Below, piece after piece: positions 25,125 to 33,718 of a stretch of 35,466 bases of DNA; position 1 is the stretch's first letter, and each line of letters opens with the position of its first letter. The position numbers were made by a program, and so were the translations under genes. Origin of the DNA: Actinomycetota bacterium (GTDB lineage Bacteria > Actinomycetota > Acidimicrobiia > IMCC26256 > JAENVU01); assembly GCA_016870395.1 (NCBI GenBank), contig VGBT01000026.1, forward strand, positions 1-35,466, in the 5' to 3' direction. The notes beneath the pieces were generated by a model. It worked only from the letters and a program-made list of their open reading frames with translations. It ran no database searches and was not told the origin of the DNA.

Positions 25125-26213
25125 TCAGGAGGAGATGGGGGCGAGGTGCTGGTCGCGCCACTCGTCCCACTCGGGACTGAAGTAGCGGACACGCACCTTC
25201 TTGTACTCCTTTACCGACCACAACAACGCGTAGTCGGTGATCCCCGTCTCGTCACGGATGGCCTCGATCGTCTCCTGGCAGTCGCGCGCGGAGCGGCCGT
25301 GGACCATGGTGAACACCGTGTAGGGCCAGTCGTCGTAGGTGGGCCGTCGGTAGCAGTGCGACACGGCCGCGAACCCGGCCATCTGCGGTCCGATCTCGCT
25401 CAGCGCGTCCTCGGCGACCGCCCACACGCCCATCGCGTTCGCCTTGAAGCCTGCGGTGCGGTGGTTCATCACCGCCGCGAAGCGACGCATCAGCTTGCGC
25501 TCCTCGAGCGAGTGCAGCGTGTCGAGCAGCTCGCCCTCGGTGCAGCCGGCCTGCTCGGCGAGCGCGGTGAAGGGACGCTCTACGAGTGGGAGGTCGCCCT
25601 GGGCGACACGGATGACGGCCATGTCGCGTTCGGAGAGCGTCGGGGCCTCCATGTCGGGTGTGCGCTCGGGTCGCTCGTGCTCGAGCACCTCGGACTTGGC
25701 GTTCGCTTTGTTCTTGCCTGTCATGTCGAGCTTCACGCCGATCTTGAAGAGCTGGAGGGTGGGGAGCTTGCGGGTGACGAGCGCCCCCGAGGCGCGGTGC
25801 AGCACGTCGAGGTGCTCGTCGAAGTCCTCACCCGGCGGCACAGCCAGCGTGTACCAGAGGTTGTAGGCGTGGTTGCGCTTGTAGTTGTGGCTGACCCCGG
25901 GGTGACCGTTGATGACCTCGGCGGCCTGGTCGACCCGTTCGGGGTCGACCTTCGCGGCGACCAGCGCCGAGGAGTACCCGAGGGCTCGGGTGTCGAAGAT
26001 CGCAGAGAGCTGGCGCAGCACGCCGAGCTCCTTGAAGCGGCCCAACGACGCGCGCACCTCGGGCTCGGTGCTGCCGAGGCGCTCGGCGAGCTCGGAGAAC
26101 GGCTGGGCCTCGAGCGGGAAGTCCCACTGGATCGCGTTGAGGAGCTCGCGATCGGCGTCGGTCAGCTCGACGGCGGGCGGCTCGGTACCGGGGCTCGGGC
26201 GCATCGCCGTCAT
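25125..26213 (-). CDS. Fused siroheme decarboxylase (AhbA-AhbB/NirDL type)
   Basis: The 362-residue protein holds two copies of an Lrp/AsnC-like unit: residues about 17-170 and 190-350. Each has a winged-helix start (LLNAIQWDFPLEAQPFSELA; RVAQGDLPLVERPFTALA) and the heme-pathway signature (GVSHNYKRNHAYNLWYTLA; AVSHCYRRPTYDDWPYTVFT). AhbAB or NirDLGH proteins convert siroheme to didecarboxysiroheme for heme or heme d1. Partner genes such as ahbC/D or nirJ are not in the window. Two in-frame ATGs are possible at the start. A repressor role is a weaker alternative. Confidence 0.9.
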   Translation of the reverse strand: MTAMRPSPGTEPPAVELTDADRELLNAIQWDFPLEAQPFSELAERLGSTEPEVRASLGRFKELGVLRQLSAIFDTRALGYSSALVAAKVDPERVDQAAEVINGHPGVSHNYKRNHAYNLWYTLAVPPGEDFDEHLDVLHRASGALVTRKLPTLQLFKIGVKLDMTGKNKANAKSEVLEHERPERTPDMEAPTLSERDMAVIRVAQGDLPLVERPFTALAEQAGCTEGELLDTLHSLEERKLMRRFAAVMNHRTAGFKANAMGVWAVAEDALSEIGPQMAGFAAVSHCYRRPTYDDWPYTVFTMVHGRSARDCQETIEAIRDETGITDYALLWSVKEYKKVRVRYFSPEWDEWRDQHLAPISS

Positions 26214-28027: not shown

Positions 28028-28204
28028 GTGGCGTTCCTCGCGCTCGCGCTCGGGTTGATCGTCGTCGGGGTCGTGTTCGTCGTGCTGCGCAACCGGCGGC
28101 CGACGGGCATCGACGCCGGCATCGAGGACTTCGAGGCCCGCCGCCGGGCGCTCGCCTCCGACGAGGAGCAGCCGGAGCCCAGGGGCGGCCGCGGCCTTGG
28201 CTAG
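28028..28204 (+). CDS. Small membrane protein between moaE and mreB, 58 residues
   Basis: GTG 28028, one base after the moaE stop, opens a frame for a hydrophobic N-terminal helix (about 2-20, LALALGLIVVGVVFVVL), an Arg-rich stop (RNRRPTG), and an amphipathic charged helix (IEDFEARRRALASDEEQ). It ends inside the TTG start region of mreB with an 8-bp overlap. No family is recognised. The layout suggests a membrane-bound helper, possibly linked to MreB; this is inference from position and topology. Confidence 0.6.
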   Translation: MAFLALALGLIVVGVVFVVLRNRRPTGIDAGIEDFEARRRALASDEEQPEPRGGRGLG

Positions 28205-29204
28205 GGACCTGGCGATCGACCTCGGCACCGCCAACACGCTCGTCTACTCGCGCGGCCAGGGCATCATCCTCAACGAGCCGACGGTCATCGCGCTCAACAG
28301 CCGCACGCAGGACGTGCTGGCCATGGGCCACGAGGCCTGGCAGATGATCGGCCGCACCCCCGGCTACATCGTCGCGGTGCGCCCGCTGCGCGGTGGCGCG
28401 ATCACCGACTTCGAGATCACGCAGCGGATGATCCGGCTCCTGTTCCAGCGCGCCGGGGTGTCACGGCTCTACCGCGCGCGGGTGCTGATCTGCGTGCCCT
28501 CCGCGATCACCCACGTCGAGCAACGCGCGGTGCTCGAGGCCGCGCGCCGTGCCGGTGCGGCGGCGACCTACCTGATCGAGCAGCCGATGGCCGCGGCGAT
28601 CGGGGCCGGGCTGCCGATCCACGAGCCGATGGGCAACATGGTCGTCGACGTCGGCGGTGGAACCACCGAGGTCGCGGTGATCTCGCTGGGTGGCGTCGTC
28701 GCGCTGGAGGCGGTGCGCGTCGGCTCGTTCGACATCGATGCCGCGATCCAGGCGTACGTGAGGCGCGAATACGGCATCGCGATCGGCGAGCGCACCGCCG
28801 AGGAGATCAAGCTCGCGATCGGTTCCGCGTTCCCCACTCCCGACGAGTACAAGGCGGAGGTGCGGGGGCGCGACCTGATGAGCGGCCTGCCGAAGACGAT
28901 CATCCTCTCGCCCGAGGAGGTGCGGGAAGCGATCGAGGAGCAGGTGCGGGCCATCTGCGACGCGGTGATCGCCGCGTTGGCACAGACGCCGCCCGAGCTG
29001 TCCCAGGACCTGATCACCCGCGGCATCCACCTGGTCGGCGGCGGCGCGATGTTGCGCGGTCTCGACTTGCGGATCGCGAAGGAGACCGCGCTGCCGGTGT
29101 ACCTCGTGGAGGCCCCGCTCGAGTGCGTCGTGCTCGGCGCCGGCCGTTGTCTCGAGTCCTTCGACCGCCTGAAGGACATGTTCATGGGTCGCCCGCGGAC
29201 CTGA
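28197..29204 (+). CDS. mreB: Rod shape-determining protein MreB
   Basis: The 335-residue actin-like ATPase has the phosphate-1 loop AIDLGTANTLVY, the connect motif and the phosphate-2 loop VVDVGGGTTEVAVIS, the segment EIKLAIGSAFP, and the adenosine motif HLVGGGAMLRGLD. MreB filaments guide cell-wall synthesis. The start is TTG, overlapping the small membrane gene by eight bases. Unlike typical rod operons no mreC or mreD follows; the next gene is convergent. Many actinobacteria lack MreB, so its presence hints at a deep-branching group or a spore-wall role. Confidence 0.95.
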   Translation: MARDLAIDLGTANTLVYSRGQGIILNEPTVIALNSRTQDVLAMGHEAWQMIGRTPGYIVAVRPLRGGAITDFEITQRMIRLLFQRAGVSRLYRARVLICVPSAITHVEQRAVLEAARRAGAAATYLIEQPMAAAIGAGLPIHEPMGNMVVDVGGGTTEVAVISLGGVVALEAVRVGSFDIDAAIQAYVRREYGIAIGERTAEEIKLAIGSAFPTPDEYKAEVRGRDLMSGLPKTIILSPEEVREAIEEQVRAICDAVIAALAQTPPELSQDLITRGIHLVGGGAMLRGLDLRIAKETALPVYLVEAPLECVVLGAGRCLESFDRLKDMFMGRPRT

Positions 29205-30741: not shown

Positions 30742-31854
30742 ATGAGCATCCCAACCGCCCCTCCGGCGCCTCCTGCCGACTCCGCTCCGCCGATCCCGCC
30801 CCCGCCGACCCGGCGGCGCCGATGGTTGGCCGCGCTCACCGTCGCGTTCGTCGGCGCCCTGGTGGTCGTGATCGCGGGGACCCTGATCCGGGTGCCCTAC
30901 GTGATCTCCTCGCCCGGCGCCGCGACGCCGGTGCGAGACGTGGTGCGGATCGAGGGCACGAAGACGTACCGGCACCGAGGCGAGGTGCTGTTCCTCACGG
31001 TCTCGGTGTCGAGCAAGCGGCCCAACCTGTGGCGCTTCGTGTGGGCGAGCAACGACCCCGACGCCGAAGTCATCTCCGAGGACGACTATCTCCAGGGCCA
31101 GTCGCCGAAGAACGTGGAGCGCCAGAGCGTGGTCCAGATGGACGAGTCGCAGCTCCTCGCCAAGAAGGTCGCACTGGAGGAGCTCGGCTACCGCGTGACC
31201 GTGACCGGGGCCGGCGCGCGGGTCGTCCAGGTCATGCCGGACAGCCCTGCCGACGGCGTGCTGCGTCGCGGCGACGTGATCACCGCGATCGACGGGGTTC
31301 CCGTGCGCCTGCGCGAGCAGGTCGGCGAGATCGTGCGGGCGCAGCCCGTCGGCACGATCTTCTCGCTCACCCTGGTGCGCAAGGGCCAGACCGTGACGAC
31401 GGCGATCACCACCGAGGAGGCGACGAGCGGGGAGCTGCGCGGCAAGCCCCACGTCGGCATCTCCGCCGTCACCGAGGACCTCGACGTCGAGTTCCCCGTC
31501 GACGTGCAGATCGACCCGGGGCCCGTCTCGGGTCCGTCGGCAGGCCTTGCGTTCACGCTCACGATCATCGACGAGCTGTCGCCGGGCGATCTCACCGGTG
31601 GGAAGTCGGTGGCGGTCACCGGTACGATCGACGCGGAAGGCAACGTGGGCGAAGTCGGTGGGGTCCGTCAGAAGACCGCGGCCGCGAAGGACGCCGGCGC
31701 GACGCTGATGCTCGTCCCGCGCTCCGAGGTCGGGCTGGCCCTGCCGGCGGCGGGCGACATGGAGGTGGTCGGCGTACGGACGCTCGAGGACGTGCTGCGC
31801 GTGCTGCGGCGCCATGGCGGCGCGCCGGTGCGCGCGATTGCGCCCGCGGCCTGA
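30742..31854 (+). CDS. Membrane-anchored PDZ-Lon (S16) serine protease, YlbL-like
   Basis: The 370-residue protein has a Pro-rich start, one membrane helix (about 28-48), a PDZ domain (about 150-225) and a Lon-type protease domain with Ser266 (GPSAG) and Lys311 (VRQKTAAAKDAG), the S16 dyad. This is the YlbL/Rv3194c family. In mycobacteria the same family lies next to a UPF0182 gene; here one gene separates them. The ribosome site GGGGAA precedes ATG 30742. Confidence 0.93.
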   Translation: MSIPTAPPAPPADSAPPIPPPPTRRRRWLAALTVAFVGALVVVIAGTLIRVPYVISSPGAATPVRDVVRIEGTKTYRHRGEVLFLTVSVSSKRPNLWRFVWASNDPDAEVISEDDYLQGQSPKNVERQSVVQMDESQLLAKKVALEELGYRVTVTGAGARVVQVMPDSPADGVLRRGDVITAIDGVPVRLREQVGEIVRAQPVGTIFSLTLVRKGQTVTTAITTEEATSGELRGKPHVGISAVTEDLDVEFPVDVQIDPGPVSGPSAGLAFTLTIIDELSPGDLTGGKSVAVTGTIDAEGNVGEVGGVRQKTAAAKDAGATLMLVPRSEVGLALPAAGDMEVVGVRTLEDVLRVLRRHGGAPVRAIAPAA

Positions 31855-31933: not shown

Positions 31934-33718
31934 ATGGCTGACGTGCAAAGGCGCGTGGTTTCGAGCGCGCCCCGGCTTTCGCCGGAGGAGATCGCCAATC
32001 GCGGTTTCGCGAGCGCGTTCCGCGGGATCTCGGAGACCGAGGTCCGCAACTTCCTGAAACGGGTCGCCGACGAGATGGCGGCCACCCGGAACCGTGAGGT
32101 CGAGCTCGCGGCGTTGGTCGACGACCTGCGCGCGCAGCTGCGCAGCCCGGCGCCGCTGACCGAGCAACAGCTGCTCGACTCGCTGGGTGAGGAGACTGCC
32201 CGCGTGCTGCGCTCGGCGCAGGAGGCCGCCGAGGAGATCCGTTCCCGCGCCGAGGAGCGCGCCGCCGTCCTCGTTCGCGAGGCGCAGGAGGAAGCGACGC
32301 GTCGCCGCGAGCAGAGCGAGGTTGCGTCCCGCGAGCGCCTCGAAGGCGCGGAGCAGGTCGCCACCGAGCGCACCGAGGCCGCGGAGGCCGCGGCCAAGCA
32401 GCTACGTGACGACGCCGAACGGGCCGCGGCCGAGCTTCGGGCCGCGGCCGAGCGGGAGGCGCACGCCATCCGCGAAGCCGCGTCCGCCGAGTCGGAAGCC
32501 GAGGTCGAGGCGGCGAAGGAGACGGGGCGCGGTCTGGTCAACGAGGCGCGTGCCGTGCGCGAGCGTGTGCTCGCCGACCTCGGGCGCCGCCGGAACCTGC
32601 TGCAGGTGCAAGTCGACGAGCTGCGCGCCGGCCGCGACCGGCTGCTCGACGGGTATCGGGTGGTGAAGCGCACGCTTACCGACGCCACCGAGGCGCTCGC
32701 CGGCGTCGAGGTTCGCGCGGCCGCCGAGCTCTCGGGTCCTGCGCCCGCGGTCGAGGTCCCGCCGGTCGAGGGCGAGCTCGAGACCCTTTCGGGTGAGCAG
32801 ACGCCCTCCGCGGAGGTGGTCGCCGTCGAGATCGACGCGGTCGCCGCGCTGGTCGGCGAGCCGGGGGAGGGCTCCGGGGCGGAGGTCGACGCCCTGTTCG
32901 CTCGGCTCAAGGCCGAGGCGAGTGAGCGCGAGGCGCCGGCTGCACCGGTCCAGCTCCCGGCACCGGGGGCGGAGGCGGGATCCGAAACCGCGGCGGGATC
33001 CGGGACGGCACCGGTGGAGATCGCCGACGCAGCCGGCGCGGCGACGGAGGCAGCACCGGAAGCCGAGCTCACCGGTGACGACTCGATCCGCGCGGAGCGC
33101 GCCGCGGTGCTCGACCCGCTCGGCCGGGAGCTCGCGCGCAAGGCCAAGCGAGCGCTCCAGGACGAGCAGAACGATTTGCTCGATCGCATCCGCAAGGTCA
33201 AGGGAGCTCCGAGGGCGCTCGACGTCCTGACCCCGCAGGAAGGCCGGCACCGGGCGTGGTGCGACGTGCTGCGCGCACCGCTCACGGCGGCGTACGCGGG
33301 TGGGTACGGACTTGGCGGTGGGGGCAAGACGCGCAAGCAGGTACCGGCACAGATGCTCGACGAGCTGGCCGACGACCTCGTCGCACGATTGCGCGACCGC
33401 CTGGTTGTCGCGATCGACGAAGCGGCCGACACCGACGACGTCACCCAGCGACTCGGTGCGCGCTACCGGGAGTTCAAGGGGCAGGACCTGGATCGGGCGC
33501 TCGGCGACGCGCTCGCCGCGGCATGGGCCAGGGGCACGTTCGACGTCAGCCCGGCCGGGACGAGCCTGCGATGGGTCCCGGAGGTGGAGGGTCGTTGTCC
33601 CGACTGCGACGACAACTCGCTCGAGCCGACCGTCCGGGGCGAGCCGTTCCCCACGGGGACGCCGCACCCGCCCGCGCATCCCGGGTGTCGTTGCCTGTTG
33701 GTGCCCGAGAAGGCCTGA
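31934..33718 (+). CDS. DivIVA-like coiled-coil protein with phage MuF-like C-terminus
   Basis: The 594-residue protein begins with a DivIVA-like segment (about 15-50, LSPEEIANRGFASAFRGISE), then a long Ala/Glu/Arg coiled coil (about 75-265), an acidic Pro/Ala-rich linker (about 270-385), and a helical C-domain. The last 40 residues hold CPDC (555/558), His582 and CRC (585/587) in the order CxxC...HPGCRC, as at the end of phage MuF/minor head proteins. Such a motif would bind zinc. The full combination is unknown to me. It may act at the cell pole or septum. No phage genes flank it. Confidence 0.8.
   Translation: MADVQRRVVSSAPRLSPEEIANRGFASAFRGISETEVRNFLKRVADEMAATRNREVELAALVDDLRAQLRSPAPLTEQQLLDSLGEETARVLRSAQEAAEEIRSRAEERAAVLVREAQEEATRRREQSEVASRERLEGAEQVATERTEAAEAAAKQLRDDAERAAAELRAAAEREAHAIREAASAESEAEVEAAKETGRGLVNEARAVRERVLADLGRRRNLLQVQVDELRAGRDRLLDGYRVVKRTLTDATEALAGVEVRAAAELSGPAPAVEVPPVEGELETLSGEQTPSAEVVAVEIDAVAALVGEPGEGSGAEVDALFARLKAEASEREAPAAPVQLPAPGAEAGSETAAGSGTAPVEIADAAGAATEAAPEAELTGDDSIRAERAAVLDPLGRELARKAKRALQDEQNDLLDRIRKVKGAPRALDVLTPQEGRHRAWCDVLRAPLTAAYAGGYGLGGGGKTRKQVPAQMLDELADDLVARLRDRLVVAIDEAADTDDVTQRLGARYREFKGQDLDRALGDALAAAWARGTFDVSPAGTSLRWVPEVEGRCPDCDDNSLEPTVRGEPFPTGTPHPPAHPGCRCLLVPEKA

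Follow-up and report, generated by a model that had tools for sequence, protein, structure and literature searches.

A DivIVA-type protein of Acidimicrobiia with a diverged C-terminal domain homologous to phage MuF head proteins

Introduction

Can a protein of the kind that organises the bacterial cell, such as the DivIVA-type scaffolds that as a rule mark poles or sites of division, carry a module derived from a phage head? The question is raised by a gene lying in a 35,466-nucleotide stretch of DNA from an actinobacterium of the class Acidimicrobiia (the window). A first-pass annotation made from the sequence alone had proposed that its product resembles DivIVA at the N-terminus and ends with a Cys/His motif of the type found in MuF minor head proteins, the family of phage Mu gpF and SPP1 gp7 (PF04233, TIGR01641). 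MuF domains are nearly always carried by phages: among the chromosomal MuF copies previously surveyed, 90% reside in prophages and 3% in prophage remnants (PMC5576092). The relevant passages of this survey do not mention DivIVA, and within the open-access literature, subscription papers being outside the scope of the search, we found no paper containing both DivIVA and MuF, nor DivIVA and Acidimicrobiia. Were a MuF-like domain to be fixed in a protein that organises the cell, throughout most of a bacterial class, it would illustrate clearly the conversion of a phage head module into cellular machinery.

Organisation of the fusion gene

The gene occupies positions 31934..33718 on the forward strand, starts with ATG and encodes 594 amino acids. 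Its frame is conserved at the protein level in 59 out of 61 related genomes, a few of which match in the DivIVA part only, and conservation gives no support to the long open reading frame found on the opposite strand of the same interval.

The DivIVA-like N-terminus was confirmed. Residues 15-134 (31976..32335, forward strand), which comprise the DivI1A motif and the start of the predicted coiled coil, match the Pfam family PF05103 with 48.7 bits for a cut-off of 28 (E 9.3e-13); the NCBIfam DivI1A_domain cut-off is also passed, and the PF05103 match was recovered at the same position in a search of the whole genome. They are followed by an Ala/Glu-rich predicted coiled coil and then a low-complexity Pro/Ala/Glu linker (residues 135-379; 32336..33070, forward strand), both recognised by sequence inspection only, without a coiled-coil program. 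The N-terminal domain is shared with DivIVA/Wag31 (PF05103) of Gram-positive bacteria, as is, judging from sequence inspection, the coiled-coil-like Ala/Glu-rich stretch after it. Unlike these proteins, the fusion has an additional folded MuF-like domain at its C-terminus and is encoded in a PDZ-Lon/UPF0182 locus as the second DivIVA gene of its genome, the other one being located elsewhere, on contig 62. Two homologues are encoded by very long open reading frames of 1476 and 1543 amino acids (L047 in genome G018 and L102 in G178, respectively) with expanded middles, and two others, L103 and L135 (families coded f88), have kept the MuF-like domain and lost a recognisable DivIVA start.

The C-terminal conserved domain encompasses about 210 residues (380-594) and ends with CPDC...FPTG...PPAHPGCRC. 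It is composed of a helical core (residues 380-541; 33071..33556, forward strand), delimited with alignments and AlphaFold2 models, and of a Cys/His tail (W547...C555, C558...FPTG...H582, C585, C587; 33572..33715, forward strand), delimited with a tail-only profile alignment and column counts, in which the motif reads C555-x2-C558...F572-P-T-G...H582-x2-C585-x-C587. The phage-like ending proposed initially was upheld with a correction, as the conserved unit is this whole domain and not the last 40 residues.

Relationship of the C-terminal domain to phage MuF proteins

No single-sequence comparison produced a MuF match above a curated cut-off, in either Pfam or NCBIfam. The window protein obtains 12.1 bits with Phage_Mu_F, below the cut-off of 29.6, and only 6 of 35 family members match this model at E below 1 (best E 0.0067). 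Profile-profile comparison with hhalign aligned the domain to a set of 11 phage MuF sequences, phage Mu gpF among them, with a probability of 97.2% and E 4e-11 over domain residues 104-212, while none of 20 column-shuffled controls fell below E 0.095 and both the reversed control and the DivIVA control gave negative results. Homology established between profiles is the criterion by which MuF3 and MuF4 were added to the family (PMC5576092), and the domain meets it. A HMMER profile built from 102 domains also scores four of the phage MuF proteins, with 46.8 bits at best.

The closest phage relatives are the portal/MuF and capsid-maturation-protease/MuF proteins of actinophages (phrog_2662, phrog_16493; Arthrobacter phages Laroye, Salgado and Edmundo gp17). 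Scanned individually, 33 of 35 relatives match phrog_2662, a family of portal proteins (best E 1.3e-13), and 25 of 35 match phrog_16493, a head maturation protease. The window protein aligns to positions 575-709 of the 717 of phrog_2662, which fits its C-terminal MuF part, and the match covers domain residues 95-214. Searched against viral contigs, the domain profile retrieved six of them, with E between 4e-7 and 4e-5. Three were examined closely, and in these the matched gene lies immediately 3' of a portal-like gene and encodes a protein terminating in CDVC...FPTG...PPAHPHCRC. A distant homologue compared by tblastn with Arthrobacter phages matched, with E 4e-4 and 33% identity along about 115 residues, genes annotated as capsid maturation protease; the gene matched in Edmundo (E 1e-3) is annotated as 'MuF-like minor capsid protein'. 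The window's own domain and that of another homologue (L121), in contrast, found no match in 50,697 phage records.

These actinophage proteins share with the fusion protein a succession of helices followed by W, CxxC, an FPTG-like loop, PPxH and a CxC tail, in addition to the predicted fold and the significant profile-profile match. Phage Mu gpF possesses only the PP...CRC part, without CxxC or HPxC, and the resemblance to its motif that was first suggested is therefore only partly upheld, the CxxC...HPxCRC form being that of actinophage-like MuF proteins. Unlike phage MuF genes, the fusion gene is chromosomal, vertically inherited and fused to DivIVA; it has no portal or terminase neighbour, scores below the Pfam cut-off and has lost the tail in some lineages.

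The sequence evidence for this homology is mainly carried by the Cys/His tail, which alone matches phage MuF with a 96% hhalign probability (E 4.9e-9), and the helical core without it gives no significant match (E 0.0094, probability 4.4%). Structure prediction extends the comparison. AlphaFold2 run on 35 aligned domains gave a confident model (pLDDT 94.6, pTM 0.90) consisting of long helices, a strand and a loop-rich tail. With Foldseek, this model has 29 matches at E 0.001 or below among the viral models of BFVD, the best being a portal protein with E 6e-6 and a query TM of 0.72. The named matches comprise head morphogenesis, minor capsid, capsid protease and portal proteins, accompanied by two uncharacterised proteins and one phage protein with a zeta-toxin domain; a haloarchaeal phage is represented among the Foldseek matches. 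The PDB yielded no meaningful match by sequence or by fold, so that the comparison is one of model against model and the MuF-type fold of the whole domain remains a prediction. For a relative naturally devoid of the tail, the core was modelled at pLDDT 93.7, and some of the phage head and portal proteins matched by the whole domain are again among its top-ranking Foldseek matches, with a probability near 1 but an E of 0.11. This core-only match is suggestive at most, and it is the whole domain that supports the claim of homology.

Profile-profile alignment together with the modelled structure shows that the C-terminal domain is a diverged homologue of phage MuF. Two outcomes had been named beforehand as able to refute this interpretation, the absence of any profile or structural similarity to MuF proteins and the absence of the motif from close homologues; neither occurred, since both similarities were found and the motif is present in these homologues. 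We classify the protein as one of the DivIVA kind with a diverged MuF-homologous domain, and not as a member of Phage_Mu_F as this family is curated in Pfam.

Conservation and loss of the Cys/His tail

The five motif positions are occupied by Cys, Cys, His, Cys and Cys in 87, 86, 86, 94 and 92 of 102 aligned homologous domains, respectively, a column conservation that excludes chance as the source of the motif. Variants nevertheless exist with CPDA, SPDC or no His, and the tail is entirely missing in seven homologues, which implies five or more changes when mapped on the core tree. These tail-less proteins (L089, L090, L091, L092, L093, L094 and L095, from genomes G062, G067, G068 twice, G085, G139 and G158) end just before the tail. 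Frameshifts were considered as an explanation and discarded, as the three frames past the stops contain no remnant of the tail, except for L042/L023 where it is present in another frame.

The tail is constrained in most lineages yet dispensable, and its loss in some of them argues against it being the functional core of the domain. Its likely contribution would be to stabilise the domain through a metal; metal binding is here an inference, and zinc is merely plausible.

Distribution and vertical inheritance

Among 247 sampled Acidimicrobiia genomes, a search with the domain model detected the domain in 180, the figure being a lower bound because three apparent negatives carry it on inspection. 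It was also found in 17 genomes of the same phylum outside the class, distributed in six families, and the named relatives are mostly Acidimicrobiia or Actinomycetes. One homologue labelled as Acidobacteriota bacterium (L008) is nearly identical to another from an Actinomycetes bin (L007), and its contig was probably mis-binned.

On the tree of the helical core, the 46 family labels need 45 changes, which is the minimum possible. Shuffled labels required 78.8 changes on average and none of 200 shuffles was as low as 45. The domain tree thus follows the family labels, indicating vertical descent and not repeated delivery by phages. The fusion gene is a vertically inherited chromosomal gene and no prophage relic.

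Genomic context

The gene is preceded by a gene for a protein with PDZ and Lon-type protease domains, identified with Pfam (30742..31854, forward strand), and followed by that of a UPF0182 membrane protein, truncated where the contig stops (33777..35466, forward strand). Among 85 loci, the former lies upstream in 69 and the latter adjoins the fusion gene in all 85. MreB and a HEAT-repeat gene are frequently found further upstream; in the window, the MreB/Mbl gene (PF06723, E 3.8e-132) is located at 28197..29204 on the forward strand. No phage gene was found among the window open reading frames that were scanned, and the neighbourhood given in the first-pass annotation, a Lon-type protease and UPF0182 without nearby phage genes, was confirmed to this extent.

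Linkage to UPF0182 and PDZ-Lon is fixed. The whole set of three genes is present twice in G068 (L091, L092), suggesting that they act as a unit. In several domain-negative genomes PDZ-Lon directly precedes UPF0182, and the pair consequently exists without the fusion gene. In G152 (L176, L186), PDZ-Lon, a DivIVA gene without the MuF domain and UPF0182 follow each other in the same order. This arrangement was considered as a candidate for the pre-fusion ancestor and judged the less likely reading: in the UPF0182 tree, both G152 and G061, which belongs to a lineage with genomes of about 1 Mb, nest among MuF-bearing lineages, a position that points to later loss.

A proposed role

The protein is very likely a DivIVA-type scaffold whose C-terminus is a domesticated and diverged MuF domain. 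In the scenario that we favour, the domain would originally come from the head or portal protein of a tailed phage. The N-terminal DivIVA domain would bind the membrane at poles or septa and the middle region would oligomerise, with the MuF-like domain serving as a docking module displayed by this membrane scaffold. Since their linkage is fixed, UPF0182 and PDZ-Lon membrane proteins would be the likeliest partners, concentrated in this way at growth or division sites; synteny is nevertheless only indirect evidence of interaction. Docking has a precedent in phage SPP1, in which the MuF protein gp7 binds the portal (PMC6316719, PMC5576092); gp7 is dispensable for assembly, and in its absence only about 25% of the virions are infectious (PMC6316719).

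Taken as a whole, a domesticated MuF domain on a DivIVA scaffold that docks its neighbours is the best available explanation, and we hold it with moderate confidence. The docking step itself is more tentative, being inferred without localisation, partner or metal data. Of the cell-pole protein with a phage capsid module first imagined, the MuF homology is supported, and polar localisation and zinc binding are still inferred. A bolder reading, which we offer as a conjecture only, would be that a major actinobacterial lineage domesticated a phage head-assembly domain at an early stage, placing it at the effector end of a DivIVA scaffold, and that the domain's ability to dock on a portal now serves to dock UPF0182 and PDZ-Lon, a conserved but uncharacterised membrane system, at poles or septa.

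UPF0182 is a widespread family without known function, for which the fusion protein offers a testable partner. Natural experiments are provided by the relatives devoid of the Cys/His tail, and by one that apparently lacks the whole domain with the DivIVA part still in place.

Alternative explanations

The main rival proposes that the MuF-like domain binds DNA, the protein thereby anchoring the chromosome to the membrane at poles or septa. In its favour, the title of a work cited in PMC5576092 and PMC6316719 describes SPP1 gp7 as a DNA-binding protein, actinobacterial DivIVA proteins interact with ParA/ParB according to published abstracts, and three basic residues of the core (K26, R41, R133) are near-invariant. 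However, gene linkage points to membrane proteins and not to chromosome segregation genes, and in the absence of DNA-binding data we regard this tether as unlikely compared with a scaffold docking its membrane neighbours.

Convergence is less tenable still. The Cys/His tail would then be a zinc-knuckle-like ending without descent from phage MuF, as could be argued from the weakness of the core alone and from a significance that derives mainly from the tail. Against this, the order and spacing of W, CxxC, FPTG, PPxH and CxC match those of actinophage MuF, the PHROG and hhalign matches reach into the preceding helices, and Foldseek pairs the whole domain with phage head proteins, some of which reappear among the top matches of the core. 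We therefore disfavour convergence as very unlikely and retain descent from phage MuF.

A third possibility, that the protein belongs to a domesticated phage-like particle, a gene-transfer agent or a toxin-delivery system, was rejected as very unlikely. MuF proteins do have roles both in heads and in toxins carried by phages (PMC5576092), and an HK97-type capsid domain is encoded on another contig of the same genome. But the portal family PF04860 occurs in only 1 of 41 relatives and not in the source genome, Phage_Mu_F has no match over the cut-off in that genome, where no other MuF was found, and the housekeeping context is conserved in the 85 loci. No toxin domain was found with Pfam, PHROGs or PADLOC, and the association of the motif with toxin delivery raised at the outset proved not relevant, neither a toxin domain nor a phage module being present. 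The MuF polymorphic toxins of temperate phages (PMC5576092) likewise employ the domain beyond a plain head role; they combine an N-terminal MuF with a C-terminal toxin within prophages, whereas the fusion described here has a C-terminal MuF, no toxin and no prophage.

Finally, tailed phages could have taken MuF from a cellular family that is old and widespread, but this is very unlikely because phages of many bacterial taxa carry MuF (PMC5576092), with a haloarchaeal phage among our matches, and the cellular domain was found only in actinobacterial lineages, which makes transfer from phage to cell the parsimonious and probable direction, although not one deduced from a rooted tree.

Additional observations

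The HK97-type major capsid domain mentioned above belongs to an 823-amino-acid open reading frame near a contig end (contig 44, L185:459-2930, reverse strand); no other structural phage family was matched among the only seven open reading frames scanned on this contig. In the window itself, positions 25125-26213 on the reverse strand encode what is apparently a fused NirD/NirL-like protein, with two ligand-binding domains of the AsnC-like kind and two HTH domains of the siroheme decarboxylase NirDL type.
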